A stretch of 64,000 bases of DNA from Malassezia japonica. Lineage: Eukaryota; Basidiomycota; Malasseziomycetes; Malasseziales; Malasseziaceae. The position numbers were made by a program, and so were the translations under genes. Within the stretch, counting starts at the first letter, position 1. Each line of letters begins with the position of its first letter. Shown piece after piece: positions 687-62,401 of the stretch. The DNA lies in the NCBI RefSeq assembly GCF_029542785.1, contig NC_083371.1, positions 496,001 through 560,000 on the forward strand, given 5' to 3'. The notes under the pieces were generated by a model, which made no database searches, was not told the DNA's origin, and worked only from the letters and a program-made list of their open reading frames with translations.

Positions 687-2394
687 ATGAGCGCACAGAG
701 CCGTCTGTTTGCGCTTGCGTCGCACTTTGCGCCCAAGAGCGTCGAAGAGTACGACTATGTGATTGTTGGCGGTGGCACCGCCGGCTGCGTACTTGCGAAC
801 CGCCTCACGGAGGATGCAGGCGTCTCGGTCGCGGTCATCGAGGGCGGCGGCAGCGATGAGAAGGAGGACCGGTACGTAGACGGACTGACGCAGTGTCCTC
901 AACCTCCGCCGCTGGCTCGAACTCCTGGGGAGTGATCTGGACTACGGTTACACTACGACTGAGCAGCCGCGCGGCAACTCGCACATCCAGCACTCGCGCG
1001 CCAAGGTGCTGGGCGGCTGCTCGTCGCACAACACGCTCATCTCCTTCTTCCCTTTTAACGCGGACCTGGACAAGTGGCGCGACCACCACGGGTGCCCGGA
1101 CTGGGGCGCAAGCTCGCTCCAGCCGTACGGCACGCGCCTCAAGATGAACATCACACCGATTGCGCCGCAGCAGCGCAACCACGTCGTGCGCGACTGGGTC
1201 GAGGCGAGCAGCGCGGCGACCGGCGCGCCGGTCATGGAGGACATGAACGCACAGATTGCGTACCGCGGCGGCTTTTCGTCGGCAGTCGGCTTCTTCAACA
1301 TCTCGTACGACCCCTACAGCGGCTACCGCAGCAGCGCGAGCACGGCGTACATGCACCCTATCATGCCGCGCGGCGCGACGCCGCGCAAAAACCTGCACCT
1401 CTACTTGCACACATGGGTAGACCGCCTGGCGTTTGACGAGGCGGAGCCGACGCGCGTGCGCGGCGTGCACGCCGTCACAGCCACCGGCCAGCGCAAGATG
1501 ATCCGTGCGCGCCGCGAGGTGATCCTATCGGGCGGCGCGTTTGACACGCCGCGTCTGCTCCTCCTCTCCGGTGTGGGTCCCAAGGAGGACCTCGAAAAGG
1601 TCGGCATTGCGTGCCGCCACAATTTGCCTGGCGTCGGACTGAACCTCAACGACCACCCCGAGTCGATTATCCTGTGGGAGACGCGCGACACGCCCAAGGA
1701 GACGGTCATGTCGTCCGATGCGGGTCTCTTTGTGCGTGCGCTGCCGCCGGACGCGGAGCCGGTGCCGCACCCCGGTCCGGACCTCATGTTCCACATCTAC
1801 CAGGTGCCGTTTGTAGAAAACACCGAGCGCCTCGGCTTCGACGTGCCGAAGCACGCTATCTGCATGACGCCGAACGCGATGCGCTCGCGCGGCCGCGGCA
1901 AACTCTCGCTCGCGAGCTCAAACCCGAAGGACAAGCCGCTGATTGACTTCAAGTACTTCCAGGACCCCGACCACTACGACGAGCGCCTGTTTGTCGAGGG
2001 CATCAAAATCGCTCGCAAGGTCGCCGAGCAGGCGCCATTTGCGCAGCACCTCGTACGCGAGATCGCGCCGGGCCCCGAGTGCCAGACCGACGAGCAGATC
2101 TCGGAGTACGCGCGCAAGGCTGCGCACACCGTGTACCACCCTGCCGGCACCTGCCGCATGGGCACGCCGCCCGCGTACCGCGCGGGCAACGCCGACGCCG
2201 ACACGGTCGTCGTCGACCAAAAGAACCTGCGCGTCGTTGGCCTGCAAGGCTTGCGCGTGTGCGACGCGAGTGTGCTGCCCACCATTCCGTCTGTGAACCC
2301 CATGCTGACGATCCTCATGATCGCCGAGCGCAGCGCCGAGATCATCCGCAACGATGGATGGGTGAACGGCAAGCGTAAAGTGTACTTTGGATAG
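687..2394 (+). CDS. GMC-family FAD oxidoreductase (choline dehydrogenase / alcohol oxidase type)
   Basis: Two exons (687-871, 894-2394) are joined by a 22-nt intron and give 561 residues. The FAD-binding [13 protein letters not shown] motif is near residue 28. The first GMC signature ([14 protein letters not shown]) is only complete after splicing. The second signature is [16 protein letters not shown], and the C-terminal active-site region is [11 protein letters not shown] followed by [21 protein letters not shown] enzymes oxidise alcohols or sugars with FAD; the substrate cannot be read from sequence. No signal peptide is evident. The intron has a GTACGT donor and ends CTGACGCAG. Its stop is 15 bases from the end of the convergent GRAM gene. 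Confidence 0.9.
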
Positions 2395-2409
2395 ATTACT
2401 AGTATACAA

Positions 2410-6061: not shown

Positions 6062-6791
<730 letters not shown>

Positions 6792-7977: not shown

Positions 7978-8296
7978 ATGCCGCCCAAAAAAGGGGCCGG
8001 CAAGCCGGCGCTGTCGGAGGAGCAGATCGAGTACATCCTCGCCAACTTTGACCTTGAGTGTATGTCGCAATGCTAATGCAGCGGAGAAAATGCTTTCCGA
8101 GCTCAAAAATTCTGCGGACCGCCAGCTGACGGTCGCGCGCGAGCAGATGGAGGCGCGGCTGCACAAGATCCCTCCGGACGTGCGGAATATCACGCTGCAA
8201 GCCTACTATGACATGCACGCGGACACGGCGGGGTCCGAGCGTGGGCGCCAGCTCCCCCCCCTCGCGATGGCGAGTCTGCCGAACGGCAAGGCATGA
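7978..8296 (+). CDS. NBL1: Borealin N-terminal-like protein, chromosomal passenger complex subunit Nbl1
   Basis: Two exons (7978-8059, 8082-8296) around a 22-nt intron (GTATGT donor, CTAATGCAG end) give 98 residues. The spliced protein has the Nbl1/Borealin N-terminal pattern: ILANFDLESEKMLSELK followed by an amphipathic helix, a basic REQMEARLHKIPPDVRNITL and a short tail. In yeasts Nbl1 (~70 residues) bundles Sli15/INCENP and Bir1/Survivin and targets Aurora B to centromeres. The intron sits exactly between LDLE-like residues and the helix, so unspliced reading hides the gene. It ends 14 bases from the convergent RPA49 stop. Confidence 0.8.
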
Positions 8297-8310: not shown

Positions 8311-9790
8311 CTAGCGGCGAGGCGGTCCGCGTTTCCGCTGCTGGGGGAAGACGACGGGGACCTTGAGGCGCCAGCGCTTGACTTGCTGCGTGACGACCTG
8401 GTCGTCGTCGACCTCGTGCTGTGTCTTTTGTGACGTGGTGCATCCCAGCGAGCGGAAGAGGTCGCTGACTCTGCGGTGAGCTCCTGTATACTAGCATACG
8501 TACCGTTGTGTAGGCACACTCAGTTCCTGCGCTAGAGGCTGTGGAGCGACGCTGAACTCGTCCAGGTGCAGCGCGAGCACCAGGATATGAGCAAAGAGCT
8601 TGGTCTCGGTCGTCGCCGTCATCACCGGTCTGGGTTAGGCAGGAAACGTACTTTTGCGATCCGCGCGCTTTCTCGGCAAAGCGTGACAAGAGGTCGTCCA
8701 TCAGGACCTCCTTCTCGCGGTCCGGCACGCGCATCTTTTGTGCAAGCAGCATGCCGCTTTCGTCGCCGCTCTTGCCGATGCTGCGCGCGTTGCGACGGAA
8801 GGACAGGAGGAGCGCCAGGTAGTAGCCCACGCGGACCAGCTCGGCGGCCTTGGACGCCGCGCCGTCGTTCTGTGCGGTTTGCACCACACTCCAGAGGCGC
8901 GGAAGGAGCCACGGCGAGGGCTGCGGAAGCATGCGCAGCGCCTTGCTGAGCTCCGACTGCGACTGGCAGGCAAGCAGCGCCTTGGTACCGAGCGCCTTGC
9001 GCACCGTCGGCGGCAGGAGCGTGTCGAGCGCGTACACGTCGGCGGGGTCCTCTGCATCGACATTCGCCTGGGGCAGCGCGCGGCTCGCGTTGAGCGCCGC
9101 CGCGAGCTCGCTCTCGGTCGGCAGGCTCGCGACCGACTCGTCGATGCCGCTCGCAACGTGCTCGAGCACGCTGTCCATATTCTCCGTGTTGACCTTCATC
9201 CGGTCCATGTTGCGCGCGGCCTGCTTCTGCTTCTTGTTGCCGAACGCCTCGCCCAGGTCGCGGCGCGCCCGCGAGTAGTCGAGGCCGTCGGCGGCGCTGC
9301 GCAGCGCCGATGCGCTCACGTCCGCCAGCGCCTTGACCGACCGGTTGAGCGTAAAGACAGGCACCGCACGCAGCGTTACCTGCTGCGTCTTTTTGTCGTA
9401 CACACCGAGCAGATACTCGCCCGAGTAGCCACGCGTGTCGCGGCGCAGCGCCGGCGGAGCGCTCGACGATGCGCCGAGGTCCCAGTTGGTCGAGAGGTAC
9501 TGCACCGTCGGCGTCTCGCCCGTGACAAGCAGGCCATCCTTCATGGTCGCCGCGCCGTTGTCCTCGCCGCTGTCCGAGGCGTGGTACAGAGAAAAGTCGG
9601 TCGAGGTCCCTGGCTGGAACTCGCCAAAGGAGGCGAGGACCGTGCCGAGCGGCGCGTCCTTATCCTGCACATGCACCACCGCCTTGCCGCTATCCGAATT
9701 TTCCTGCGTCTTGGCCTTCTTCTTCGCGGAGGTATCCATCTCGGCGTCCTTTGCACGGCGCTTCGACGAGCCGTCCTTGGCACCTGCCAT
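8311..9790 (-). CDS. RPA49: RNA polymerase I subunit A49
   Basis: Three exons give 474 residues; introns are at 8630-8651 (22 nt) and 8471-8503 (33 nt). A lysine-rich N-terminus leads into the dimerisation domain (FSLYHASDSGED, YLLGVYDKK, VTLRAVPVFTLNRSVK). The tandem winged-helix region then contains DTLLPPTVRKALGTK, VGYYLALLLSFRRNARS and, after splicing, KLFAHILVLALHLDEFSV. A49 pairs with A34.5 and aids Pol I initiation and elongation in the nucleolus. An in-frame ATG eight codons upstream (9814) exists; MAGAKDGSSKRRA at 9790 is the better start because the divergent gene begins at 9854. Confidence 0.88.
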
Positions 9791-13451: not shown

Positions 13452-13924
13452 TTAGTGACCGGCGCGGCGCTGCTCGGCAATGGTGTTGGTGAGGATCTCC
13501 ATCTTACTAACGGTCAGCACTTTCGACACAGATATACGTACGCCTTCGCACGGCGCATGGTACCGACACGGCGCTTGATGAACTTACGCGCGCGCTTGTC
13601 CTGAATGGTCAGCAAGCTGTTCTCACAGTGCGCGCACTGCAATACACACCTTCGAGTTACGGATGAGCTCCATGGCGCGGCGCTCGTACGGCGCAAAGCC
13701 AGTGACCTCGCGGACAATGCTCCGGATGGTCTTGACGCGCTCGCTGGCGACGCCCTTCTTGGCGACACGCTTCTGCGCGGGCACGCGGCGCTCGGTCTGG
13801 TGACCGCGGTTGATACCCCAAACGAGACCTGCACATTGTTAGCATCCATGCTCTCTCACTGTGAAGAGTACGTACCAGAGCGGGGGACGCCTGCCTTGTG
13901 AGCCGGGTTCGAAGAGCTGCCCAT
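13452..13924 (-). CDS. RPL36: 60S ribosomal protein eL36
   Basis: Four exons give 113 residues; introns are at 13829-13875 (47 nt), 13601-13649 (49 nt) and 13507-13541 (35 nt). The spliced protein has the eL36 core GLVWGINRGHQTERRV, SIVREVTGFAPYERRAMEL and DKRARKFIKRRVGTMRRAK. This small basic protein belongs to the large ribosomal subunit. One donor is GTGTGT instead of GTACGT. Introns are two-fold longer than the 22-nt norm of the window, as in ARF1. The start at 13922-13924 begins MGSSSNPAHKAGVPRSG. Confidence 0.95.
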
Positions 13925-14063: not shown

Positions 14064-14736
14064 ATGCCCCTCGCCCCGCTGCGCGCGCCGCCGGCGTTTG
14101 CCGCGCCGGAAGAGCACGCAGAGATGCAGGCGTCGACGCCTGCCTCGTTTGAGAAAATCCCGCCGGCGCTCATTGCCGAGCTGTCGGACGTTGTGGTCAA
14201 ACTACAGCCCGTGCCACAAGTGCTGTGCGACGGCGAGGCACCCGACAGCCTCGTCCTCGCCGGGCGCGTGTGGGTGACGGAGGAGAGTCTCTCGTTCCTG
14301 CCAAACGCGTCCGAGTATGCAGGATTCCAGGTGTCTTACCCCCTGATTGCGCTGCACGCAGTGTCGCGCTCTGTGCCCGAGGACGTCGCGACGAGCGTGC
14401 CGAATGGCGACGCGTACCACGCGGACGCGTGCATCTACTGCCAGCTCGACGACCACCCGGAGCAGGACGACGAGGAGGACGAAGAGAACGTATGCGAGCT
14501 GTGGCTTGTAGTGCGCGATGCCGAGACACGTACGTCGCAGTGCTAACCCAGTCGACAAGCTCTTTGAGTCGCTCTCATACTGTGCCGCGCTCCATCCTTC
14601 GCTGGGCGCACAGGATGGCGATGATTCCGGCAACCCATTTGCAGGCATCGCGCCGTTTGGATCGGGATCGGACAAGGACACGGGAAGGGTGAGATCGGAC
14701 TGGCAGACGCCAGACGCTCGGTACCAGCCGTACTAG
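14064..14736 (+). CDS. pICln-like methylosome / splicing assembly chaperone
   Basis: Two exons (14064-14529, 14552-14736; 22-nt intron) give 216 residues. The PH-like pICln fold is visible in GRVWVTEESLSFLP, GFQVSYPLIALHAVSRS, CIYCQLDDHPEQ, an acidic loop (EQDDEEDEENV) and LWLVVRDAE. Helix LDKLFESLSYCAALHP is complete only after splicing. pICln binds Sm proteins for PRMT5-dependent snRNP assembly. A longer start at 14001 is possible; 14064 is closer to the family's length. The following gene is on the same strand. Confidence 0.82.
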
Positions 14737-14801: not shown

Positions 14802-15537
14802 ATGTTTGCAAATCTGCCTCCGGCCTTTTTTACGTCCGAGGCGCTCGAGACGCAGCTGCAAGAGCTGCTGTATACCTATGGCCCCGTGGTAGACTGGACA
14901 CCGCTGCCTGCGTTCGGGCGGGGCATTGCCGTGTTTGAGCGTGCGGACGACGCGGCGCGCGTAAAGCGCGCGCTCGACCGCCTGCTCCTCTTGTACGAGG
15001 ACGGAAGTGAGCACGTCCACACGGGTGATACACCGGCGAGTGGAAACGACGAGTAGGTTGACTTGCTGACGCAGCGTGTTGCGTGTGTACTTCTGCGTAG
15101 ACACGCCGCTGATCCTCTTGCCGGACGGCGAGTACGTGATTGCGCGCTCGGTCGATGCATACAAGCAGTACCTCGAACCGCCCGAGCCCGAGCGCGAGTT
15201 CCTCATCAGTCCCCCAGGCTCGCCGCCGGTGGGCTGGGAGCCGCGCTTGGAGGACGGGCCGAACAAGGAGACGCTCGCGCAGGACCTCATCGAGGCGCTG
15301 CACAAGCTGAACCAGGCGCCCGAGGCGGAGCCGGAGCACCTCGCCGCGGGCGAGCATGTGATCCTCTCTCCAAGCACCAAGGCGAGCGGCGCGCCGGGCG
15401 TGACGGTGCACGCGACCGACTCGCATGCGCCGACCTCTGCGCCACCCGCGCCGATCTCGTCGGTGAAGGCCACAGCCGATAGCCTGCTGGGCACTGCGCG
15501 GCCGGCAATGCAGCCGACGGCGCGCCCGCCTATGTAG
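14802..15537 (+). CDS. RCN1: Calcipressin (regulator of calcineurin), N-terminus uncertain
   Basis: Two exons (to 15052, from 15075; 22-nt intron, GTAGGT donor) encode an RRM-like domain: TLMFANLPPAFFTSEALE, WTPLPAFGRGIAVFER, then VLRVYFCVDTPLI. The calcineurin-docking segment is PEREFLISPPGSPPVGWEP, the hallmark SPPxSPP motif of calcipressins. The family binds and modulates calcineurin in the cytosol. The first in-frame ATG (14802) falls inside the first beta strand. The open frame continues upstream to 14769 after a possible acceptor (CACACTACAG), but no ATG-bearing upstream exon is evident. The true start may be in an exon overlapping pICln or may be non-AUG. Confidence 0.85.
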
Positions 15538-20521: not shown

Positions 20522-20969
20522 TTACTCGTCGGTCTTGGCGACCTTGGACGACTCAGGCTCCTCCTCGCCATCATCATCTTCGTCGTCATCCTCGTCGTCA
20601 TCCTCGGCCTTGCGCTTGTTGCCGGATTGGGCGCTGGGTCAGATAGGGCACGTACGCCGACTCTCCCTCGTCGTCCTCGTCGTCCTCGTCGTCCTCGTCA
20701 TCGTACTCTTCCTCATCATCTTCCTCCTCCTCTTCCTCCTCATCATCTTCATCGTCGTCCTCGCCCTCGACCTGCTGTGAGCACGGGGCACATACAAAGT
20801 CCTCGTCCTCTTCTTCGTCGTACTCCTCGTCGTCGTCGTCACCCTCCTTCTTGCTGTCGTCGGCGGCACGCGCCTTACCAGCCTGCACATCCGACACGGC
20901 CGAGCCACCCTCAGGGGCATTGGCCGTAGCAGTAACTTCCTTGGTCTTCTCGGTCACCGTCGCGCTCAT
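20522..20969 (-). CDS. Highly acidic nuclear-type protein (Chz1/prothymosin-like)
   Basis: Three exons give 134 residues. After MSATVTEKTKEVTATANA come long Asp/Glu runs, a short GNKRKAEDDDED nuclear-signal-like stretch and an acidic end. Introns are at 20775-20795 (21 nt) and 20634-20655 (22 nt). The composition fits acidic histone chaperones such as Chz1 or prothymosin, but the canonical Chz motif is not seen, so function is only suggested. The first intron ends CACAGCAG, a tandem acceptor; use of the second AG makes a 24-nt intron and removes one Gln, both in frame. Confidence 0.7.
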
Positions 20970-35600: not shown

Positions 35601-35904
35601 CCCGAGTGCCTCGGAAGGCTGCGCCATGGCGTGCATGCTACATGAGTCAGGGCACGTACCGCTTGTCCAAAAAGTCATCAACCAAGTTCAGCCCAAAGAG
35701 CCGCACTGCGTGCCCGTACTTGGGCGCATTGCCCTCGTCGCGGGCCACCCAGACCGCCCAGCCGGTGCTCCAGCTTTCGTGGGTGTTTTGTTTCAGCTGC
35801 TCCAAGTAAGCGAGCGCCTGTGGCACGAGGCTCGCGTCTGCCACGGACGCCGCATTGGAGGCTATCTCAACAGCCTGTATCAGCTGTACCTCCTGCGAAT
35901 CCAT
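32616..35904 (-). CDS. LOS1: tRNA exportin, exportin-T
   Basis: Two exons (35904-35660, 35637-32616; 22-nt intron) give 1088 residues. The N-terminal importin-beta-like region spans the intron ([20 protein letters not shown]). Exportin-T features include [61 protein letters not shown] and the core [20 protein letters not shown]. Los1/Xpo-t carries mature tRNAs out of the nucleus with Ran-GTP. The intron acceptor is TGACTCATGTAG. ATG 35916 four codons upstream is an alternative start. It is divergent from HEM15. Confidence 0.93.
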
Positions 35905-39320: not shown

Positions 39321-39497
39321 GCGACTTGGAGCTGCGTTAGTCGTGCCACGTACTGCCGCAAAGCCTAGCGCGGGCGGCGTGGCCTCGGCGGGCGGCTCCG
39401 CCTGCTCCGCTGGCTTTTGCACATCCGCCTGGAGGTTCTCGAGCTGCTCGAGCTCCTCCTGCTCACGCTGCTGGCGCCGATTCAGCTTCCGACTCAT
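37247..39497 (-). CDS. RQC1: Ribosome quality control protein Rqc1 / TCF25 homologue
   Basis: Two exons (39497-39354, 39331-37247; 22-nt intron) give 742 residues. The start MSRKLNRRQQREQEELEQLE and a Lys-rich stretch (KKKKNKKKSKKKAE) are typical of TCF25/Rqc1. The conserved core includes WDHSRAYRQAQFQFAQAV, FRVFPWHIDTLLQLSDVSRY, DFIDRALFALERSA, FFLRAENR-like region (VDFLRAENRAMWLASHRNID) and RTALEWCKMLFGLD. Rqc1 works with Ltn1 and Rqc2 on stalled 60S ribosomes. The C-terminus is acidic and Ala-rich. It is convergent with HEM15 (8 bases) and divergent from SCO1. Confidence 0.92.
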
Positions 39498-46505: not shown

Positions 46506-49500
46506 ATGGCCGGTGCGACGATGGCGGCCCAAGCGGCGCAGGCGCCGTGGCCGGCGCCTTTGGAGGAGCTGGGGAAGACGTTCAAGGTACGAGGAGGCTC
46601 TTATTTAGGCGGTGAATACTGTATACACGTTCTGCTCTGCACACAAGCAACTTGTGACCTCGTTCGACACACTCAAGTCGAGCGTCCAGGCACTGACCAA
46701 GCGGTATGTCACACAGCTGACGCAGGCCACTCGAGGTCGACGATATCGCCAAGATGAAGGCAGTATGCCCGGATCTGATCGAATTTGCCTATGTGCCAAC
46801 AGCAAGCTTACACACTGAGGAGAGCGATCCGAAACGCAGGCGGACCGACGACGATTTGTACGAGCTGCCGGGTCAGGTAGCGCCGCAGTACACGCTCCTC
46901 TTTGAGTTTACCGACCGATCGGTCGATACGTCCAAAGCGACGGGGAAGCGGGTGCTCAATGTCAAAAGAGGTGCGTCACAAAAAGAAACGATTCGCGTGA
47001 TTGGCCGACGGAACGACATGTTTGAGCGCGCAATGAACACGATGCTCTGCGCATGCGAGGAAGCGGTACGTTTCTCTGCTTATCCAGAGCACCGATCCGC
47101 TGGTTCTAGTGATGGAGGCAGCACAAAAGTATGTGCCGGTACGCCCAGGCGAAGTTCCGCTGGACCACGAGCGGAGGACGCAGCGGGAGCGACTCGATGC
47201 ATGGGCACTCGATCCTGCATCCAAGCCGAGCGTCGCACAAATCCTGGCTGAACTCAAGGAGCAGCCATGGTGGCGCGAACAGATTGTGCCTGGTGGTCGC
47301 CGCACATTTCCAGCGCGGCCGGCCATCTATCTTGATCCGGAGCCTGCACTCGACGACGAAACGGCCACGGCGCTCAAGCAGGCGCACGGGATCTCGCAGC
47401 TGTACCGGCACCAGGCGCTTGCTGTGAATGCGTATCGCCGAGGCAAAAACGTCGTGGTATGCACAGGCACCTCGTCGGGAAAGTCGCTTGTCTACCAAAT
47501 TCCCATCGCGAGTGCACTTTCCCAGGACCCCGAGGCGACGGCCATGTGCATCTTTCCGACCAAGGCGCTATCTCAAGACCAGCTGCAATCGATGCACCGC
47601 CTCTTTTTTGCGTATACCTCGCTTGGGGGTGCATCAATCGCTACATACGACGGTGATACGCCTCGCGAGGAGCGCCGAGCAATTCGCGAATCTGTGCGTG
47701 TGCTCTTTACAAATCCAGACATGCTGCACCAGTCCATTCTTCCCCATGAAGAAATGTGGCGCCGCTTCTTTCGGGGTCTGCGTATCGTCGTGGTGGACGA
47801 GCTGCACGTCTATTCGGGCATTTTTGGGACGCATGTTGCGTTAATTTTGCGGCGCTTGCGCAGAGTGTGCACGGCGCTCGGCAACCCCAACGTGCAATTT
47901 GTGAGCTGCAGTGCAACCATTGCCAACCCTGCCACGCACATGGCGTCACTCCTTGCGCTGTCTGAAGACTCGATCGCAGTTGTCGACGAGGACGGGTCGC
48001 CATGTGGTTGCAAAGAATGGGCCGTGTGGAACCCACCGGAAATCGATCCCGACGGACTTGGCGGAGCGCGTGTCAGCTCGTACACCGAGGTGTCACAACT
48101 CTTTCGGCACCTCATTCTGCATGGCCTGCGCACGATCGTCTTTGCCAAGGTCCGGCGGACATGCGAGATTATTGTGAGACAGGTCCGCGAAGACCTCGCG
48201 CGCGATGGGCACACGGACCTCGCACAGCGTGTGCATGGCTACCGCTCGGGCTACTCGGCCGCCGACCGCCGCCAGCTCGAGCAGCAAATGTTTTCCGGCG
48301 ACATTCTTGGCCTAGTCGCCACGTCAGCTCTAGAGCTTGGCGTGGATATCGGCAGCCTGGATGCCGTCATCATGTTTGGCATGCCGTACTCAGCCGCGAG
48401 TATGTGGCAGCAAGCGGGCCGTGCAGGCCGGCGGCAACACGATGCACTCGTTGTCTTGCTCGCCGAGCCATTCTCGGTGGACCAGTACTACATGCGCAAT
48501 CCAGAGCTGATATTTACGCAGCCCCATGCGCCACTGTGGGTGGACACTCAGAATGAGTTTGTCCTCTCGTCACATATTCAGTGCGCTGCCCTCGAGGTGC
48601 CGATTGAGGTGCACGAAGACACGGCCTTTTTCGGGCCCCGCCTCGACGCACTTGCGCTGCAGCAGCTTGAAAAAGATGCAGCTGGGTTCTACCACTACAC
48701 AGATACAAGCGGCACACAGCCTGCCAAGTCCATCTCCATTCGAGGAGCGCGCCAAGAAACATACAAGTATGTCGATACCAACACCGGCGCTGTCCTCGAA
48801 GAAGTCGAGGTGGAACGTGTATTCTTTGAAGCCTTTCAAGGCGCTGTATTTTTACATCAAGGCACGACGTACATCTGCCAGGATGTATTGCATGACCACA
48901 ATGTCGCACTACTTGCGCGTGCCGACGTCATGTACCATACACGTCCCCGCGATCTGACCGACACAGATGCGACACAGACATGGCGGATTCGTACGCTCGA
49001 GCACGCCCATCTGCTCGCTTACTATGGCCAGGTAACGCTCACGTCGCGCGTCTGGGGCTACTACAAGGTCGACCGCCGCGCAAACATTCTCGACACGGTC
49101 GAAGTCGACTCGCCGCCCATGGTCCGCTCGACCAAAGGGCTCTGGATCGATGTGCCATGGTCGATTATCGAGCAGATCGCCGAGCACGGCATCAATGCAC
49201 CAGCCGCGATCCATGCCGCGGAGCATGCCATTTTGAGCCTGACACCGCTGTTTGTAGCGAGCGGCTCGGACGACGTGCGTACGGAATGCAAAGTTCCTCG
49301 CCGCGAGATCGGCGACAAGAAGCAGCCGACGCAGCGCAAGCGCCCATCGCGCTTGATCTTTTACGACAAGCCCGGGAACGATGCTGGAATCTGCGCACAA
49401 GTCTTTCAGCATCTCGATGCACTACTACGCATTGCGCTATCGGTCATTGAAAAGTGCCCGTGCCCCGACGGGTGTCCCGGCTGTATCGAGACACCATCGT

Positions 49501-49765: not shown

Positions 49766-50504
49766 CTAGTTCCACGCATCGCGCTGGAGCGCAAGCGTCT
49801 GCGCGAGCGCCGTCCAGCCGTCTGCATCAGTCGCTTCGACGAGGTGTGTATTAGAGCGCGCAGACACGGCGTGCTGCTTGTACGCCGCAAGCACCGCATC
49901 GGCCTTGACGCCCGAAGAGGTCACGCCCGGTACAAACGCCACGACAAGCGTGTCGACCTGACGAGCGAGTTGCTCTAGGCGTGTGCAATACGACGCCAGC
50001 TCTTCGCCCTGGTTCGCCTCGCCGTTCCACAGCGAGGCATAGCCATTCTCGTTGACAATTACGAGCTCAACATGGCACTGGCACTGCAGAGCTCGCGCGA
50101 GCATGGCACGCCCCTCGGCGGTCGAATACGGCAGCGTGCGCAGCGTTTCAACGCCCGGCAGCGCCGGCTTCTCGCCCGAGGGCGAGCAGATAAGAGCGTG
50201 TACCTGGAACAGCACCTGGAGCTGTGCTAGAAGCCCATCGACGTTATTCTGCAAAGCACCGTTGTGCGTAAGCTCGTTTTTCAGCTCCGTATCCACCGGA
50301 AAAGAGAGGCTCAGTGTGGGGTTCTATGTGAGCGCAGCAACACACCTTTCCGCTGCGCTTTTTCGGCGCACCAGCTTGCCCCCCATCCAATTTATTTTCG
50401 GAGCGTGTCCAGCGCCAAACTGCCGCACCCACCACGGCCGCTAGGCCGACGGCCAACAGCGCGGCGCGCACCGGTCTCGGCGAACGTCCCTGCGCCGGGG
50501 GCAT
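49766..50504 (-). CDS. Single-pass membrane protein, possible Pex22
   Basis: Two exons (50504-50346, 50323-49766; 22-nt intron, GTGTGT donor) give 238 residues. A short positive N-terminus (MPPAQGRSPRPVR) is followed by a membrane segment (AALLAVGLAAVVGAAVW) and a basic stretch. Then comes an alpha/beta cytosolic domain (NPTLSLSFPVDTELKNEL, LQCQCHVELVIVNENG, LVVAFVPGVT). This order and length match Pex22, the peroxisomal anchor of the E2 enzyme Pex4, but the sequence signature is weak. Another single-anchor protein is possible. HRQ1 converges with only five bases between stops. Confidence 0.5.
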
Positions 50505-50561: not shown

Positions 50562-52427
50562 TTACTCCTTGTAGGTCGGAACCCACATCTGGCTGTTGAT
50601 CCAGTCGTGGAGTTCCTTGTCGGAGAGCTTGGCGGTGAAGCCGTCGTCACCGGCAAGGCCCTGCTTGTTGATGAGCTTGATGCAGCGCTGTGCAATCTGG
50701 TTGGAAATCTCGCGGACGCGCTCGAGCTTGGGGTAGATGCGGCCCTCTTTCTTCTCCTCCTCGGTCATTGAGTCGGCGAGGGCCAAAGCGGACGCGGTAA
50801 TGACGTCGTCCGTGATGTGGCGCGCCTTGGACAGGGCACCCGCAAGGCCCAGACCCGGGAAAATGTAAAAGTTGTTGCCCTGGTCCGCGAAGCGGGTCTT
50901 GCCCTTGAAGTCGACATTGTCGAAGGGCGAGCCAGCGGCAAAGATCGCCTTGCCATCCGTGAAGCGCAGTGCCTCCTCAAAGGTGCACTCCGACTTGGCC
51001 GTGGGGTTGCTGAGCGGGAAGACGATCGGGCGCTCGTTGTATTGCGCCATCTTCTTCAGCACGCCCTCGCTGAAGGTGCCGGGGACGGTCGAGAGACCAA
51101 AGATGACGGTCGGCTTGACGTAGTCAACAATGTCCTCGAGTTCCTTGAACTGCTTGTCGTCGTTGTCCTCGCGCGCAAAGTACTCCTTGTGCGACGCGAG
51201 CTTGTCACCACGGTTCTTGGTAATGAGACCCTTGGAGTCGGTGGTCCAGACGCGGCTGCGCGCCTCCTCCTCCGACATGCCGTGGATCTGGAAGAAGGAC
51301 ATGAGCTGCTTCGCAACACCGATCGCGGCCGAGCCGGCACCGACCATCAGAATGCGCTGGTCGATCAGGTCCTTGCCCGAAGCAGCGGAGCCCATGCGTG
51401 CGGCGTTGATAAAGCCACCGAGAATCACGGCACCAGTACCCTGAATATCGTCGTTGAACATCGGGTACTTGTTCTTGTACCGATCAAGGAAAAGGAAAGC
51501 GTGCTCACTGCTCCAGTCTTCAAACTGGATGATGAGGTTGGGGTACTTCTTGTGCAGCTCATACATGACCTCGTCCACAAACTCGGCCAGCTCCTCAGTG
51601 CTGGGACGCTTGCGGCGCAGGCCAAGGTACAGGGGGTCCTCGCGGTGCTCTTCGTTGTCGGTACCCACGTCGATCACGATCGGCATCGTGGACTGGGGGT
51701 GCACACCCGCACCCGCCACGTACAGAGAGAGCTTGCCGATCGAGATACCCAGGCCGTTCCAGCCAAGGTCACCGAGACCGAGGATGCGCGATCCGTCAGT
51801 GATCACCGCAATGCGCGGCACGTCTTGCGGGCGCGGCCAGTTGGAGACGCACTCGGCGACCGAGCCCTTGTCATCGATGGTGAGCGTCAGGCCCTCGGGA
51901 CGACGGAACATGTGCGAAAACTTCTGGCAGGCCTCGCCGACGACCGGAGTGTAGACCAGCGGCAGCGTCGAGCGCATGTTCTTGAGGATGTACGCGTAGA
52001 AAAGGCGCTCGTTGCGCTGGCGCAAGTTGGCGAGGGCAATATGCTTCTGGAAGCTAGTCGACTTGGTCGAGATCTGGTGCTCGACACGCTTCAGCTGCTG
52101 CTCCATCGTCTGCACCGACGGGGGCAGAAGGCCACGGAGGCCCATTCGCTGGCGCTCCTCCTTGGTGAAGCCAGTACCTGGTAGTGAGTCGTTTGCCCGT
52201 CACCTACCCTTGTTCGTGTAGATGTCACGGAGGCAGGCAGCACCACCGTACTCGTGCTGGTCGATCGAGTAATGGACCGCGTCTTGTTTCGCATCGGGTG
52301 TGGCCTGATCAGACGAGTGTACCCAACGGCGACATAGGTATGAGCCATGATTCACACAACGCCATGGCAGACCCATATGCTTAGCGCACAGGGCCTGCAC
52401 AGGTCTACTTACCTGAACGCTCTGCAT
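50562..52427 (-). CDS. MAE1: NAD(P)-dependent malic enzyme
   Basis: Two exons (52427-52208, 52177-50562; 30-nt intron with GTAGGT donor) give 611 residues. Malic-enzyme motifs are RDIYTNKGTGFTKEERQRMG (across the intron), VYTPVVGEACQKFS, TDGSRILGLGDLGWNG, the signature FNDDIQGTGAVILGG, LMVGAGSAAIGVAKQL and FPLSNPTAKSECTFEEAL. It converts malate to pyruvate and CO2. The N-terminus (MQSVQVSRPVQALCAKHMG, then RRWVHSSD) is basic and acid-free, suggesting mitochondria. A GTAAGT right after MQSVQ could be another donor, so the first ~45 residues are uncertain. It is head to head with MDH1. Confidence 0.93.
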
Positions 52428-52663: not shown

Positions 52664-53780
52664 ATGTTCGCTCGTGCTGCTCTCCGTACCCCTGTCTCTG
52701 CTGTCCGCGCCCCTGCTGCCACCCGTCTGTTCTCGCAGACCGCCACTGCCAACCGCAAGGTTGCCGTGCTCGGTGCGTCGGGCGGTATCGGCCAGCCTGT
52801 ACGTACCTTTTTTTGACCCAGCTCTCGCTTCTCCTGAAGCTCAACAGGGACGTGACCGACCTCCGTCTCTACGACATCCGCCTCGCCCCGGGTGTCGCTG
52901 CTGACATCTCGCACATCAACACCCCGGCCAAGACCACCGGTTACGCCCAGGAGGACCTCGAGTCGGCCCTCGACGGCGCCGAGGTCGTCCTCATCCCCGC
53001 CGGTGTCCCCCGCAAGCCCGGCATGACCCGTGACGACCTGTTCAACGTACGTCGTACGACACTAACACTAGACGAACGCCTCGATCGTCCGTGACCTCGC
53101 CAAGGCCGCCGCCAAGGTCTGCCCCAAGGCCCACATGGCCATCATCTCGAACCCCGTCAACTCGACCGTCCCCATCGTCGCCGAGGTGTTCAAGAAGGCC
53201 GGTGTCTACGACCCCAAGCGCCTGTTCGGTGTCACCACCCTCGATGTGACCCGTGCCGCGACCTTCCTGTCGGGCATCGCCAACTCCAACCCCGAGACCA
53301 CCAAGGTCCCGGTCATTGGTGGCCACTCGGGTGTGACCATCGTCCCCCTCCTTTCGCAGGCCCCCGGCTCGGATGCCGTCTCGGCTGGCGAGCAGTACGA
53401 CAAGCTCGTGCACCGCATCCAGTTCGGTGGTGACGAGGTCGTCAAGGCCAAGGACGGTGCGGGCTCGGCTACCCTGTCGATGGCCTACGCCGCCGCCGTC
53501 TTCACTGAGAGCCTCCTCAAGGCCCTCAACGGCGAGAAGGGTGTCAAGGAGTGCACCTTTGTCGAGTCGCCTCTCTTCAAGGATCAGGCTGAGTTCTTCG
53601 CCTCGCCCGTCGAGCTCGGCACCGAGGGTGTGCAGAACATCCCCGCCCTGCCCAAGCTCACTGCTGAGGAGCAGAAGCTGCTCGACGCCTGCCTGCCTGA
53701 CCTTGGCAAGAGTACGTACTACGATTCACTAACAGACAGACATCAAGAAGGGTGTCAGCTGGGTCGCCGAGAACCCGTAA
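52664..53780 (+). CDS. MDH1: Mitochondrial malate dehydrogenase
   Basis: Four exons give 346 residues; introns are at 52799-52821 (23 nt), 53047-53071 (25) and 53712-53739 (28). The presequence is [20 protein letters not shown]. The NAD site reads [19 protein letters not shown] across intron 1. [48 protein letters not shown] and the active-site [16 protein letters not shown] follow. The end after intron 3 is [13 protein letters not shown]. The enzyme interconverts malate and oxaloacetate in the TCA cycle. Codon bias is strong (GTC, AAG, CTC), as in RPL6. Confidence 0.97.
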
Positions 53781-53824: not shown

Positions 53825-54896
53825 CTAGATCAGCGTCGTGACCGACGTGTCCGTAAACGACTTCGAGTCCCAGCCTTGCGCGGGGTGCTGCAACACGCCA
53901 GCATCCTCCAGCACCTTGAGCGTGTGCTGCAGCATGCCAGACGACAGCGTGTACGCATTCGTCTCGAGCGCCTTGGCGTCGGTGGGCGTGACACCTTCGG
54001 GGTCGGGCGTCGCCTCGCCGGCCCAGCGCACATTCGACGCCCAAGCGGCAATGTCCTCGGGCTTGTAGTGGTGCACGCTCTCGATAAAGGCGTGCAGCGA
54101 GCGGTCCGCACGCGTCTGAGGGTTGGCAAATGCGGTGATCGACTCGTGGAGCTTGTGCAGGAACTCTTCGAGAAGCGACTTGTTGTCTTTCAGCGCCGTG
54201 TTCTTGCTCGCCGCAATCGTCCACGACGGCCACGGCGTGGGGAGCGAGCCAACAAAGCGCACCTCGCCAGCGTCCTGGAACGGCTTCGTGGTGAACCACT
54301 CCCACATAAAGAAGCCAGTTTCATGCCTGCGTTAGAATAGTAACGTACCCGGCGACTTGGTTCACACCGTCACGCAGCGTCTTGAAGTCGTTGTTCACGA
54401 CAAAGTCCTGCTTGGCGACCTTGCCGTCGGCATCCGTCCAGCCTTGCTGCAGGCCCAGCACACTCGCCATGAGGTGTGAGCCGCTGCCGAGACGACTCAC
54501 ACCGACCTTGCTGTCACGGAGGTCGGCCACCGTCTGGTACTTGTCGGCCGCGGGCGCAGTACCGGTGATGATCGCCCTGCGTTAGTAGAGGAACGTACCA
54601 GTTCAGACTGCTGCGCACGTAGCTGCCGACCAGTGCATAGTCCGTACGGCCTTTGGCAATACCGGCAATAAGCGCCTCGGTCAGTGCGACAGCCACATCG
54701 ATCTTTTGGCCGCCGGCATTGCTGGCATCGAGCGAAGTGAGCATCTGGCCCGTGCCAGACGGCTGCTCGACAAGCTCAATGTGCGCTTGGCCCTGCAATG
54801 AGAAAGTCGACATACCCATTCGGAAGAGGCAAGCTGCAGAAGGGGGGCAGCAAAGTGTTCGGGAACGAAACCCACGCGCAGCTTAGGACTCGCCAT
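53825..54896 (-). CDS. Periplasmic-binding-protein-like (NMT1/Ca3427-type) protein
   Basis: Four exons give 334 residues; introns are at 54793-54815 (23 nt), 54577-54598 (22) and 54327-54348 (22). The spliced start [20 protein letters not shown] and [39 protein letters not shown] and [20 protein letters not shown] match the type II periplasmic-binding fold of the NMT1/SsuA family. The closest group I know is the fungal Ca3427 family of Candida, whose ligand is uncertain (thiamine-precursor-like folds). There is no signal peptide, so it is probably intracellular. Vitamin-related ligand binding is inference. Unspliced frames break the gene into four pieces. Confidence 0.8.
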
Positions 54897-55146: not shown

Positions 55147-56260
55147 TTACTCCGACTTGGACTCCACAGCCTCAGGCGCAGGCTCTGCAGCAGACTCGGG
55201 CTCCTTCTCCGATGCTTGGGGAGCACTCTCTTCGCCTTCTTGCTGGACGTAAGGGGCGCAATCAGCAACAACCTTTTGTTCGAGCTGCAGCACGGCACCG
55301 GCCAGCAGGTCGATCTGGCGCTTGGCATCGGCAAGCGTGTGCGGCTCTTCTTGCAAAATGGATGCAATCTGCGCATTCGTAGCATCTTCCGGTGTCGGCT
55401 CGTACGCAGCTTCGACATTGTCTCCAAACTGGAACTGGGACCAACTGCCCGTATCAGTAAGCTGTCCCAGGCTTGTCGTGCATTGCTCCATCGTCAAGAG
55501 GAACGGTGTAAAATTTTGGGCAGACACCGTGATGACCTGGTAAGCTGTCAGGCCACCAAACACGCGTAGCCACTCTGGCAACGGGTTTGAGACGACCAGC
55601 TGCAGTTGCGCATAGGCAAACACCGCCTGGAGAAGGAGGCCCCAGAACGTGCCTGCACCGGTCGGCCGCGACTTGCCGCGCATCATGACCCACGCAAGAG
55701 CCTGGGCAAAGAGAAGCTGGACGTGGAGAACCCCCAGCGCGTCAATACCCCGCCGCATAAACTCGTTCATCGAGCTGAGACGCTCCCACGACTCGACATC
55801 GTTGCCAAACCTGTATAAGTCATTCCACCTACCGATCGTACGCGAATCGGAGCACCGGATCAGAGAGCGTGCTGTACGCCTGGCGCAGCGCCAGAAACTT
55901 GTCTTCGTGCTCGTACCCCGCCTTGTCAGGATGGTACACCTTGGCAAAGTGCCTGAACTGGCGCTTGATATCTGCCTCAGGCGCCCACGGCACCGTATGA
56001 AGCACGGTGTAGTAGTTTGTCTGCATGCCCAGCAGCGTACGGGACACGCAGTAGCCGAGATACAGCACGGCCACGAGCATGCGTGCAGCGTGCCAATGTG
56101 ACACCGCCGCGGCGCTCTTCGGCTCCGGTCGGCGGAGACGCAGCACATGGATGGGCATCGCATAAGCACATTGCAGCACCATACGAACGCCAAAGTTCTC
56201 TGCGGCGCCCCACAGGCCCCACAGCAGCACCTGGGTCACGACCGCCTGCACTGCTCCCAT
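55147..56260 (-). CDS. Membrane-anchored J-domain protein (Erj5-like)
   Basis: Two exons (56260-55833, 55810-55147; 22-nt intron) give 363 residues. N-terminal hydrophobic segments (VVTQVLLWGLWGAAENFGV, ARMLVAVLYLGYCVSRTLL) precede a J domain: NYYTVLHTVPWAPEADIKRQ, FAKVYHPDKAG with the HPD triad, and LRQAYSTLSDPVLRFAYDRF across the intron. Two more hydrophobic stretches (GTFWGLLLQAVFAYAQLQL) and an acidic Ala/Glu/Ser-rich tail end the protein. The order fits ER-membrane J proteins such as Erj5, which support BiP/Kar2. The organelle is inferred. Confidence 0.8.
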
Positions 56261-56346: not shown

Positions 56347-58953
56347 ATGCACTCGCGTCGTCAGAGCAGTATGGTGCGTGGGCGAAATGCAGATACGCCG
56401 TACGAGCGCGTGGACGACAACGATAGCGGCCAGGACGAGGTCGAGCTCTCGCTCTTGGGCGACGGAGATAAAGGTGATCGCCATGGCGACGAAGAGTCGC
56501 TGCTTGACGACGAGGACAGCACGGTAAAGATGGTGCGCCAGATCGTACCCGAGACCGACATCCCGACGCTTCCCTCGCTCACCTTTCGGTCGCTGCTGCT
56601 GGGCTGTGCATTTACCGTGCTTGGCGCTGGCATGTCACAGCTCTTTTTCTACAAATCGAACGCGCCGGTATTCAGCAGCTACTTTGTGATTCTCGTGACG
56701 CTGCCGATGGCGCGTTGGATGGCGAGGAATCTCCCGGACAAGCGCGTAAGCATCTTTGGGTGGTCCTTCCGCTTGAATCCCGGACCGTTTACTGCCAAAG
56801 AGCACGTTCTGATTGCTGTCACGGTCTCGTCAGGCGCGACAAGCGCGTACGCGTCCGACATTATCAACATCCAGGAGCTCTTTTTTCGCCAGCACATGTC
56901 GGCGATTCCGGCACTCACCTTGCTCATCACGACGCAGGTGATTGGGTTTGGATTCGCGGGACTCGTGTACAACCTTTTGGTGCGGCCGCCGTCGATGGTG
57001 TACCCCAGCACGCTCGTTACAGTCTCGCTGTTTAATACGCTACACGACACAGAGTCATCGCTGACGCGCGTGCGAATGCGCTTCTTTGTGATGGTATTCT
57101 TTGGCATCCTCTTTTACCAGTTCCTGCCGACGACCTTTTTCCCGACAATGAGCAGTGTTGCGGTGCTGTGCTACGTGAATCGCAGCAGGGTGACGCAGAT
57201 TCTGAGCTCGGGCTACCGCGGATTTGGCATTGCCAACCTGAGCTTTGATTGGAATGTGGTCGGAAACAGCGGCCCTCTCTTCCAGCCGTGGTGGGCAGCG
57301 CTCAATTTCTATGGCGGTCTGATCGGCATGATGTACGTTGTGATGCCGCTGCTCTACTTTTCCAATTTTTGGAACGCCAAGTCATTCCCCGCAGTGTTGA
57401 GCTCGGGCCTGTTTACCACAAACTATACCAAGTTTGACGTGGACGGCGTGCTGCAAAAAGACAATACGCTCGATATCGCAGCATGGAACGAGAACAAGCC
57501 GATGCTTCTTACGCCCTTTTGTACGTACCTTTACTGACGCAGTCGCCCTCTCGTATGGAATTAGTGTACGTCTTCCCTCTGACCCAGTTTGCCGTCTTGA
57601 CCAGCACGGTACGCATTGCGCCTGACCCAGATTATGCATGTGGTGCTGTGGCACGGCAAGGATGTGAAGAAGGCCATGTTTAATCCAGTCTACTCGGTAC
57701 GGGCTTGGGCTGACACAGGACGTGCACAACCGACTCATGCAGTCGTACCCCCTCGTGCCCCAGTCGTGGTACCTGTCGACGCTGGTGCTGTCGCTCGGTG
57801 CAGCAATTGTGCTGGTCATGACGACGCCCCTACAGTTTCCGGTACGTTACTACGCTGACGCAGGTGTGGGGCTTGCTGCTCTCCGTCGGCATGTCGCTCT
57901 TTTTCCTGATCCCGATTGGCATTCTCAAGGCAGTGAGCGATACAGGCGTCGGCCTGAATGTGATTACCGAGTACGTTGCATGCCTCACACAGATTTGTCG
58001 CTGGTTTCCTTATTCCCGGAAAGCCAATCGGAAGTACGTGTGTCAACTAACCCAGACGTGTGCTGGAAGTGCTACGGCTACATGAGCTGTGCACAGGCCC
58101 TAGACATGATTGGCGACCTGAAGCTCGCCCACTATATGAGTACGTTTTTTCTTCTCACCCAGAAATCAACCCCAAGCACATGTAGGTACACTGGCTGACG
58201 CAGGTTCCTTTCGCAGTTGATGTACGTGACTGTGCTAACGCAGTGGCACTGTGATCGGTACGTGTCCTGGCTTATGCAGGTTGTGTTGTGAATTACATGG
58301 TCGTGTGCGTCGTGCTTGCCCCCGAGAATGGGTACCGTGCCTTTTTGGACGGAAGTGGTACGTGGCAATACTAACGCAGTGCCCGACCCCAGCGGCCAGT
58401 GGGACGGACGGTAGGTTTTTTTTGGCTCACGCAGCAAAGTCCACATTTTCCGGTCGGCGTCGATTATCTGGGGCGCCGTTGGCCCCGAGCGCTTCTTTTC
58501 CGGTGAGTACCGCAAGTTGTACTGGGGATTTGCGCTCGGTGTCGTGATTCCGTTCATCCCCTGGCTCCTGCACAAGCGCCTCGAGCGCATGAAGAACAAG
58601 GTGCTGCGCGAGTCGATCTTTAGCAAGACGGTCGTGCCAATTATTCTGCACGGTGCCATCGCTCTTCCCGCCACGCCGACTAACGTATGTCTCTCTGCTC
58701 ACACAGATCATTATTGGCGGCTTTGCCTGTGCGTTTTTGTCACAGAAATGGGCACGCGAGCGGTATCCCGACTGGTTCGCCAAGTTCAAGTACGTTGTCT
58801 TTCTAACTCAGCTATGTTCTTTCAGCCGCTTTGGACGCCGGTGCTTCTGTCAATGCGCTCATTGTCTTTGTTCTGTCCATCACCATGTTCAAGTGGTGGG
58901 GCATGCCGCACTTCTTTGCGGGGAACGACGCCGAGCATTGCCAAGCCCCATGA
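56347..58953 (+). CDS. OPT-family oligopeptide transporter with 15 tiny introns
   Basis: Sixteen exons give 757 residues. The long first exon (56347-57520) carries an acidic cytosolic N-terminus and the OPT motif NPGPFTAKEHVLIAVTVSSG. Fifteen introns follow at 57521, 57566, 57609, 57697, 57842, 57971, 58034, 58140, 58182, 58222, 58258, 58358, 58411, 58685 and 58790; thirteen are 22 nt, one 23 and one 24. Spliced, the tail gives KDVHxxLM-type (YSDVHNRLMQSYPLVPQSWY), GFLIPGKPIGNVCWKCYGYM and FNYVLSAALDAGASVNALIV, all OPT hallmarks. OPT proteins import small peptides or glutathione at the plasma membrane with protons. Exon lengths sum to 2274, exactly 758 codons. Confidence 0.95.
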
Positions 58954-60190: not shown

Positions 60191-60203
60191 TACTATAGAT
60201 ACC

Positions 60204-61394: not shown

Positions 61395-61954
61395 ATGACA
61401 TTCCGTCTCGCTACCCGCCCCGCTGCGCAAGCTCTTCGTGTTCCCAAGACGCCGCTCGTGCGTACAGTGACCAGCCTGAGCAAGGTTGCGTACACCGCCA
61501 AGGCCGAGTCGAGCGGCGCCGGCCGCAACGGCGATGTGAAGCTGCGTGAGGGCGGCCCCCTCAAGTTCCAGCTTACGCTCCCCAAGTCGCTCGGCGGCTC
61601 GGGTGAGGGCCACAACCCCGAGCAGTTCTTTGGTACGTATCTCTACTGACCCAGCGCTCGGCTACTCTGCGTGCTTCCTGAGCGCGGTCAACGCTGTGGC
61701 GCGCGCCCAGAAGGTCAACCTCCCGAAGGATATTGAGGTGCACGCGGACGTGAGCATTGGCACGCCCGAGGGCCGCCAGGGCTTTGGCCTCGCGGTCGAG
61801 CTGCTCGTCAAGGCTTCGTATGAGGCCGCGCAGAGGGAGGAGCTCGAGGGCGTCATCAAGGCTGCGCACGAAATGTGCCCCTACAGTAATGCAGTGTACG
61901 TATCTATGCTAACGCAGCCGCAACAACATCCCGGTCAAGGTGTCCCTTGCCTAA
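61395..61954 (+). CDS. Ohr/OsmC-type organic hydroperoxide reductase
   Basis: Three exons (61395-61632, 61655-61895, 61918-61954; both introns 22 nt) give 171 residues. The core reads VAYTAKAESSGAGRNGDVKL, GEGHNPEQFFALGYSACFLS across the intron and AAHEMCPYSNAVRNNIPVKV. Both reactive cysteines of Ohr (Cys in GYSACF and Cys in HEMCPYS) are present. Ohr reduces lipid and organic peroxides, using a thiol donor. The N-terminus (MTFRLATRPAAQALRVPKTP) looks mitochondrial. Ohr is mainly bacterial, so old transfer is possible, but the introns show it is fully adapted. Confidence 0.92.
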
Positions 61955-62104
61955 GTAGCGCGTTCCGTCGGTAGTATACACACCTCCACTACCACGTGCC
62001 TCCTCTCGACACGACGGCCCCGACCGCGACGTGCGACGCCCTGAGAGTGCGCCGCGATAGTGTGCCGAAACGTGCCTAATCTCTAGTCATATTGTATACT
62101 GGTG

Positions 62105-62401
62105 ATGCTGGGCCTTGGTACCATCTTTTACACGGCGCTCCTGCTCGTCAATGCGATCGCTGTGCTGAACGAGGACCGATTCTTGAACCGAAGTACGTCA
62201 TGCCCCTAACGCAGTCGGCTGGTCGACAAACTCGCGTAGCATGAGCTTTGACGATACCGGCGATGCGGGCGTCAAAGCGCGGCTCGTCAACTTGATCAGC
62301 GCCGTGCGGGTCCTCCTCCGAAGTACGTCTCCCCCACTGACAAAGTCCCCCTCATCGCTGTGAATATCATTGTAATTTTCTACGAGTTGATCCTAGGGTA
62401 G
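62105..62401 (+). CDS. YOS1: ER-Golgi transport protein Yos1
   Basis: Three exons (62105-62192, 62215-62322, 62346-62401; introns 22 and 23 nt) give only 83 residues. The spliced protein is the Yos1/IER3IP1 family: MLGLGTIFYTALLLVNAIAV, LNEDRFLNRIGWS, VKARLVNLISAVRVLLRIPL and AVNIIVIFYELILG, with a hydrophobic segment at each end. It works with Yip1-Yif1 in COPII transport. The second acceptor is CTGACAAAG, an AAG rather than the usual CAG. No single ORF is long enough to show it. Confidence 0.93.

Follow-up and report, generated by a model that had tools for sequence, protein, structure and literature searches.

The 64,000-nucleotide (nt) stretch of Malassezia japonica DNA analysed here (positions 496,001 to 560,000 of contig NC_083371.1, assembly GCF_029542785.1; hereafter the window) raises the question of whether its protein-coding genes are interrupted by spliceosomal introns of nearly uniform length, 22 nt, and what would hold them at this length. 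A first-pass annotation, made from the sequence alone, had placed 38 introns of exactly 22 nt among 58 in the window and had described their length as fixed, as suggesting a physical minimum and as making every retention a frameshift. The original observation is correct, and stronger than first stated: 22 nt stood out as the mode in the motif scan, in counts over the whole genome, in protein homology and in a motif-free gene model run alongside decoys. As to the cause, these are probably U2-type spliceosomal introns shrunk to the smallest geometry accepted by the spliceosome of this yeast, with the branch-point A at +17 and five nt after it.

The intron-length peak at 22 nt

The pattern counts, like the motif-free test described below, involve no gene-model length prior. 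In the window (both strands), the pattern GTRNGT..CTNAY..AG was found at 35 sites of exactly 22 nt, as compared to 0.5 expected from 20 first-order Markov sequences, and the same scan gave one site of 21 nt and five of 23 nt. In a 264-kb sample (the window combined with C1:200-400 kb, i.e. 200 kb of contig C1) and with the end required as CTNAY-N-Y-AG, there were 103 sites of 22 nt against 0.0 expected (10 second-order Markov sequences); this stricter motif yielded eight sites of 23 nt and two in total for 15-21 nt. Over the entire genome (8.43 Mb, 9 contigs), GTRNGT-N7-CTNAY-NYAG had 3,112 matches at 22 nt (9 for the reversed-pattern control), the 23-nt pattern with a 5-nt tail had 388 sites (control 5), and patterns of 15-21 nt with the same tail had 75 (control 47 for all seven lengths), four of them of 21 nt. 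At least one of these 75 (C2:554038) is nested inside the 22-nt intron at window position 58034. A single dominant length thus stands at the lower edge of the distribution, and the cliff beneath it is visible genome-wide independently of any gene model.

The motif-free gene model used codon statistics from long open frames on both strands, allowed introns of 10-250 nt with a flat length prior and required only the end dinucleotides. With GT..AG ends, 41 of its 161 introns were of 22 nt; 40 of the 41 carried CTNAY exactly at positions 14-18, a feature not used by the model, and 40 carried GTRNGT. Eleven decoy dinucleotide pairs gave 0-4 junctions at 22 nt and none with CTNAY at 14-18. The total number of junctions was similar for the decoys (149-172), and the score gain with GT..AG (2,157) was slightly above theirs (1,901-2,105). 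Since such a model patches reading frames whatever the dinucleotides, only the 22-nt peak with its unseen motif is evidence. The spliceosomal character proposed in the first-pass annotation is supported by the GT..AG ends, the conserved 5' site, the branch motif and the lack of a 22-nt peak with decoy ends.

When both motif and length were scored, the window came out with 60 introns. Of these, 37 measure 22 nt, 45 fall within 21-24 nt and 12 within 25-49 nt, and three (108, 308 and 379 nt) are doubtful. Over the 264 kb, 110 of 186 introns were of 22 nt and 76 of another length, and introns were present in 95 of the 155 modelled genes. These gene models are our own rather than a published annotation, and their length prior favours 22 nt, partly shaping the 37/60 and 110/186; the motif model without this prior placed 22 nt in 29 of 58 introns (window) and 92 of 186 (overall), part of the difference being due to pairs of 22-nt introns merged across a short exon. 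Same-strand models, which reward motif and length, used 99 of the 103 strict sites as introns. What stands of the claim of a fixed length is therefore a dominant mode, accompanied by a tail up to 49 nt and by genes (ARF1 and ribosomal protein L36) devoid of any 22-nt intron. The earlier total of 38 out of 58 is equalled by taking the site at 29643-29664 and dropping two doubtful introns, an agreement of totals in which no identity of sites is claimed. The 22-nt introns of the window are listed here with their support ("model" refers to our gene models).

872..893, + strand: GMC oxidoreductase gene (model; junction inside GMC_oxred_N)
8060..8081, + strand: Nbl1/Borealin-like gene (model; inside Pfam match)
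8630..8651, - strand: RNA polymerase I A49 gene (model; inside Pfam match)
14530..14551, + strand: Voldacs-family gene (model; inside Pfam match)
15053..15074, + strand: calcipressin gene (model; inside Pfam match)
20634..20655, - strand: acidic-protein gene (model only)
22493..22514, - strand: Tam41 gene (model; edge of Pfam match)
24674..24695, - strand: folylpolyglutamate synthase gene (model; junction outside the aligned part)
28926..28947, - strand: Pet127-like gene (model; outside Pfam match)
29015..29036, - strand: Pet127-like gene (model; outside Pfam match)
29643..29664, - strand: Der1-like gene, probable further intron (motif site hidden in the modelled 308-nt gap)
29741..29762, - strand: Der1-like gene (model; inside Pfam DER1)
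35638..35659, - strand: exportin-T gene (model; outside Pfam match)
39332..39353, - strand: gene without a name (model only)
39770..39791, + strand: SCO1 gene (model; outside Pfam match)
46587..46608, + strand: HRQ1 helicase gene, weak 5' site (model; inside CDT1-like match)
46704..46725, + strand: HRQ1 helicase gene (model; inside CDT1-like match)
47066..47087, + strand: HRQ1 helicase gene (model; outside Pfam match)
50324..50345, - strand: gene without a name (model only)
54327..54348, - strand: Ca3427-like gene (model; inside Pfam match)
54577..54598, - strand: Ca3427-like gene (model; edge of Pfam match)
55811..55832, - strand: DnaJ gene (model; edge of Pfam match)
57521..57542, + strand: OPT transporter gene (inside Pfam OPT; alignment)
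57566..57587, + strand: OPT transporter gene (Pfam OPT; alignment)
57609..57630, + strand: OPT transporter gene (Pfam OPT; alignment)
57697..57718, + strand: OPT transporter gene (Pfam OPT; alignment)
57842..57863, + strand: OPT transporter gene (Pfam OPT; alignment)
57971..57992, + strand: OPT transporter gene (Pfam OPT; alignment)
58034..58055, + strand: OPT transporter gene (Pfam OPT; alignment)
58182..58203, + strand: OPT transporter gene (Pfam OPT; alignment)
58222..58243, + strand: OPT transporter gene (Pfam OPT; alignment)
58258..58279, + strand: OPT transporter gene, preceded by a 14-nt exon, 58244-58257 (Pfam OPT; alignment)
58358..58379, + strand: OPT transporter gene (Pfam OPT; alignment)
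58685..58706, + strand: OPT transporter gene (Pfam OPT; alignment)
58790..58811, + strand: OPT transporter gene (Pfam OPT; alignment)
61633..61654, + strand: OsmC-like gene (inside Pfam OsmC)
61896..61917, + strand: OsmC-like gene (inside Pfam OsmC)
62193..62214, + strand: Yos1 gene (inside Pfam Yos1)

The Der1-like and Pet127-like genes were fused by the model (27272-30297) via the 308-nt gap and are probably two genes.

Protein continuity and introns of other lengths

The 37 modelled 22-nt junctions of the window comprise 25 inside a Pfam match, three at a domain edge, six outside and three in proteins that were not scanned. The earlier statement that intron removal restores a continuous conserved protein is upheld by these 25 junctions and by an alignment with nine fungal proteins. 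One case is the OPT transporter gene with its 15 introns (13 of 22 nt, one of 23 and one of 24), the spliced product of which covers positions 2-622 of the 623 in Pfam OPT with 501.8 bits, a score that drops to 455.5 bits if the 21-nt and 78-nt exons are merged into introns. Alignment to Malassezia furfur and to a non-Malassezia fungus, Tilletiaria, is free of gaps through its exons of 23, 21, 19, 18 and 14 nt. The aligned protein shares 84% identity with its M. furfur counterpart and 87% with the one from M. obtusa, and the remaining close matches with a name (among the 120 of 588 that were listed) belong to Malassezia and then to other Ustilaginomycotina. Between 58163 and 58257 the exons (19, 18 and 14 nt, backed by relatives) are shorter than the 22-23-nt introns flanking them.

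For ARF1, removal of five introns (26-49 nt) yields a 181-residue product matching its best solved counterpart (PDB 5uf8) without gaps over residues 1-179, and the malate dehydrogenase junctions (introns of 23, 25 and 28 nt) are ungapped versus PDB 2dfd. Seven of eight public Malassezia OPT models (P0001, P0003, P0006, P0008, P0034, P0061 and P0071, the unaffected one being P0007 from M. vespertilionis) lose, insert or garble sequence, or end, where this genome has 22-24-nt introns, a comparison made at the protein level in which some affected models differ elsewhere too. Gene finders demanding longer introns may thus damage gene models throughout Malassezia. The window introns of other lengths are as follows.

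6092..6124, - strand: ARF1 gene, 33 nt (product ungapped versus PDB 5uf8)
6183..6218, - strand: ARF1 gene, 36 nt (product ungapped versus PDB 5uf8)
6436..6461, - strand: ARF1 gene, 26 nt (product ungapped versus PDB 5uf8)
6555..6594, - strand: ARF1 gene, 40 nt (product ungapped versus PDB 5uf8)
6688..6736, - strand: ARF1 gene, 49 nt (product ungapped versus PDB 5uf8)
8465..8503, - strand: RNA polymerase I A49 gene, 39 nt (inside Pfam match)
13507..13541, - strand: ribosomal protein L36 gene, 35 nt (inside Pfam match)
13601..13649, - strand: ribosomal protein L36 gene, 49 nt (inside Pfam match)
13829..13875, - strand: ribosomal protein L36 gene, 47 nt (inside Pfam match)
20772..20795, - strand: 24 nt; 21 nt (20775-20795) in the first model (model)
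22947..22969, - strand: Tam41 gene, 23 nt (inside Pfam match)
23378..23400, - strand: Tam41 gene, 23 nt (inside Pfam match)
52178..52207, - strand: malic-enzyme-like gene (named by eye), 30 nt (model)
52799..52821, + strand: malate dehydrogenase gene, 23 nt (ungapped at junction versus PDB 2dfd)
53047..53071, + strand: malate dehydrogenase gene, 25 nt (ungapped at junction)
53712..53739, + strand: malate dehydrogenase gene, 28 nt (ungapped at junction)
54793..54815, - strand: Ca3427-like gene, 23 nt (model; outside Pfam match)
58140..58162, + strand: OPT transporter gene, 23 nt (Pfam OPT; alignment)
58411..58434, + strand: OPT transporter gene, 24 nt (Pfam OPT; alignment)
62323..62345, + strand: Yos1 gene, 23 nt (inside Pfam Yos1)

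A predicted protein of the window (30397-31674) contains repeated AEAAP units.

Intron anatomy, codon bias and the splicing machinery

The 22-nt introns follow the layout GTRNGT-N7-CTNAY-NYAG, where the 5' site is mostly GTACGT, or else GTAGGT, GTATGT or GTGNGT. The branch A is at +17 and is followed by five bases in 106 of 107 loosely matched 22-nt sites of the 264 kb. In modelled introns no longer than 60 nt (n = 176), the tail after the branch A measures 5 nt in 127, 6 in 23, 7-12 in 21, 3 in one and at least 21 in four. The branch-to-AG distance is set, at 5 or 6 nt, in 150 of them, and longer introns gain their extra length chiefly upstream of the branch point, in the stretch after the 5' site. 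The modelled 23-nt introns combine either A at +18 with a tail of 5 (10 out of 16) or A at +17 with a tail of 6 (6 out of 16), and never have A at +16. A newly described feature is that no intron with a clear branch motif in the 264 kb requires the A nearer than +17.

The seven-nt linker of these introns has its own composition. In two separate samples (103 sites from the window and C1:200-400 kb, and 61 listed forward-strand sites elsewhere on C1), G occupied +8 in 54% and 54% and C occupied +9 in 67% and 54%, respectively. The corresponding values are 25% and 36% for 23-nt sites (first 100 listed of the 388, contigs C1 and C2) and 20% and 22% for introns of 25-60 nt (n = 45); the joint occurrence of G8 and C9 differs between 22 and 23 nt with p = 4.5e-5. 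Longer introns prefer A at +7 followed by C or T at +8 (40% vs 10-11%, p = 1.4e-5), which would extend pairing with U6 or U1. The +8G/+9C signature, also newly described, is confined to 22-nt introns, and a single added base (22 to 23 nt) seems to relieve the constraint on the linker. A mini-hairpin of +8/+9 with 13/14 was considered and rejected, as the pair 9/13 did not rank in the top twelve for dependence between positions and compensation was absent from its table.

Intron length is also related to codon bias, which was higher in genes with 25-60-nt introns (n = 26, median 0.50) than in those with only 20-24-nt introns (n = 61, median 0.39; one-sided p = 3e-5), the 64 genes without short introns having 0.41; the sample is small, and the index reference consisted of four genes (left out of the comparison), three of which have introns of at least 25 nt and may favour this result. 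Of nine high-bias proteins scanned, eight had a family, and those with 26-49-nt introns included ribosomal proteins S27, L19 and S30, superoxide dismutase and CoA-ligase.

The U2 and U6 small nuclear RNAs (snRNAs) were found above the cut-off, with the U6 box ACAGAG and the U2 branch-binding GUAGUA unchanged, and the CTNAY motif near the 3' end fits this GUAGUA. SF1 likewise had a match above the cut-off. A loss of U2AF65 is not supported, since a U2AF65-like protein scores 224 bits and spans most of the family, short of the 310-bit cut-off. The Rfam model of U1 snRNA found nothing genome-wide, and control genomes were likewise blank. The 11-base pattern of the U1 5' end, ATACNTACCTG, occurs 17 times, with no U1-like loop or Sm site downstream of any of these and no T at N, so that the usual U1 5' end was not found among them; a pattern combining the 5' end with the loop had zero sites genome-wide. 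The 5' site makes an unusual choice at +4, where C is present in 77% and A in 2% of 164 22-nt introns, and this C would be unable to pair in the standard way with the U6 A. A loss of METTL16 is not supported as its cause in view of an above-cut-off match to Methyltransf_10, the family containing METTL16 (it also matches bacterial control genomes). This match (G000:C8:266816-267695) runs in two frames that change over near 266960 and includes one TGA, as would fit a short intron. Two tRNA genes (L039:2185-2276 and L030:1797-1879) carry 13-21-base insertions in the anticodon region, probably tRNA introns, and an snR60-like C/D small nucleolar RNA lies at L030:788-894.

Origin of the 22-nt length and its relation to known systems

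We infer from the DNA that the 22-nt segments are spliced and that the cliff beneath them is steric. The notion of a physical minimum agrees with the length distribution, a cliff below 22 nt and a decaying tail above it, and such a one-sided cliff (4, 3,112 and 388 sites of 21, 22 and 23 nt) is what a minimum bridging distance may be expected to produce. Pairing of the 5' site (+1 to +6) first with U1 and later with U6, and binding of the branch motif (14-18) by SF1 and subsequently U2, would leave seven linker nt, and a linker one nt shorter would presumably be unable to bridge the two sites. Small deletions would shorten introns until this floor is reached, leading to a pile-up there. That high-codon-bias genes are more often off the floor could suggest, as a guess, that 22-nt introns splice less well.

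Several observations weigh against this reading. The best-scoring branch A lies before +17 in 6 of the 176 modelled introns of up to 60 nt; three of these (two 22-mers and one 24-mer) hold a second motif at +17 or +19, and the other three (35, 36 and 39 nt) lack a clear motif towards the 3' end and could be artefacts of modelling. Some high-bias genes hold only 22-24-nt introns, and the longer-intron group supplied three of the four reference genes. A purely steric floor does not predict the +8G/+9C signature. From 22 to 23 nt the counts fall 8:1, more steeply than a bare floor would require, and 22 nt may therefore be favoured, not merely tolerated. Finally, the branch A is at the 10th position in most 15-nt introns of the ciliate Stentor coeruleus (PMC9505925), hence +17 is not a general limit of the spliceosome.

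A reading that we regard as possible, although clearly less likely than the floor, is that the 22-mer is recognized as a separate class, its whole length being read as one composite signal helped by +8G/+9C rather than as two independent sites. The strict 22-mer is indeed nearly self-sufficient (3,112 matches against 9, nearly all sampled sites being placed as introns), and G8 and C9 are enriched in both 22-nt samples over 23-nt and 25-60-nt introns. However, longer introns carry identical motifs at the 5' site and the branch point, a partner RNA or protein for +8/+9 is hypothetical, G8 and C9 co-occur as independence predicts, and the linker composition could be a side effect of its shortness. 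In a tentative elaboration, the spliceosome of this yeast would read most introns as a single 22-nt word with both inner distances at their smallest, and the +8G/+9C, mattering only there, might point to a direct contact (with U6, Prp8 or the branch-site complex) in place of a polypyrimidine tract and two sites that are each recognized on their own; on this view the minimal form would be slower, and highly expressed genes would retain longer introns for that reason.

Selection of 22 nt for its 3n+1 property, so that retention would shift the frame and expose faulty messages to removal by nonsense-mediated decay, as has been proposed for Paramecium, is unlikely. The arithmetic of the earlier claim stood, and in 97 of 110 cases a single retained 22-nt intron brings a stop into the coding region as modelled; a role for 3n+1 was not supported. 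The second commonest length is 23 (3n+2), and among the introns of 24-60 nt in the 264 kb, multiples of three are not under-represented (19, 15 and 16 with length modulo 3 of 0, 1 and 2; small numbers). Nor are the 3n introns of the 23-60-nt tail richer in in-frame stops (10/19 vs 7/15 and 16/32 in the others), and frame selection would not call for the pinning seen in both inner distances. The 3n+1 property looks like a by-product. Still less probable is an introner-like mobile or templated 22-nt unit spread through the genome, its common length reflecting common descent. Thousands of sites sharing length and inner spacing would suit such a unit, but all 103 copies in the 264 kb are distinct, 7-nt spacer included, the insertion phases of the 110 modelled 22-nt introns are even (36, 37 and 37), and 22-nt introns coexist with 23-49-nt introns having the same 5' site and branch motif. 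Least probable is that the segments are not introns at all (i.e. frameshifts, assembly errors or DNA elements that are excised ahead of transcription). Against this reading stand the fixed order of splice and branch motifs genome-wide, the matching U2 and U6, and the failure of decoys.

Ultra-short U2-type introns are already known as a kind, and the first-pass remark that 22 nt is near the known lower limit is fair, as a paper on Trichomonas (PMC12316389) counts 23 nt as one of the smallest lengths known and cites 15 nt for Stentor and 18 nt for Bigelowiella beside it. The closest likeness is to the 15-16-nt introns of Stentor (PMC9505925), which have a near-invariant length, one branch A position, a 5-nt tail and a conserved U2/U6 core. 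There, a strong branch consensus is missing and only 15- and 16-nt introns are annotated, in contrast to the 22 nt, A at +17, strong CTNAY, ~62% GC genome and tail of longer introns described here. As in Yarrowia lipolytica, Trichomonas and Giardia (PMC2483917, Irimia and Roy 2008), the branch motif is at a set distance from AG without a polypyrimidine tract, with two nt between motif and AG as in Yarrowia; unlike in these three, the distance from the 5' site to the branch is pinned too, and introns are common, whereas the paper presents those species as poor in introns and the introns of Yarrowia as fairly long. Type B introns of Trichomonas vaginalis (down to 23 nt; PMC12316389) similarly form a very short class beside longer ones, with the branch motif fused to the 3' site, yet in an intron-poor genome, as opposed to thousands of 22-nt sites here. 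Tiny introns are also known from the nucleomorph of Bigelowiella natans (18 nt; PMC12316389). Its genome is compact, like the one studied here.

Within the genus, introns have been reviewed as very short (PMC7426719). The RNA-sequencing-guided annotation of M. restricta permitted introns down to 15-20 nt (PMC6473144), and the mean and median for this species are 37.2 and 30 nt (PMC9241646, which also covers M. arunalokei), and very short introns are thus spliced in the genus. With 76 and 79 nt given for M. globosa (PMC4634964), reported Malassezia means range over 37-79 nt. M. sympodialis has been counted as intron-poor (PMC8476143), in contrast to the share of intron-containing genes found here. 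In the literature searched, which is incomplete for genome papers of the genus, no mention of a 22-nt mode, of a floor at +17 or of the branch geometry in Malassezia was found.

The nucleomorph of B. natans is an AT-rich relic of an endosymbiont nucleus, and ciliates are far more distant than M. japonica from the yeasts used for spliceosome structures. The floor, the linker signature and the codon-bias link deserve tests. Thousands of introns of one geometry, with an edge at +17 and a change in the linker between 22 and 23 nt, make this genome a natural ruler for the smallest span of a fungal spliceosome.

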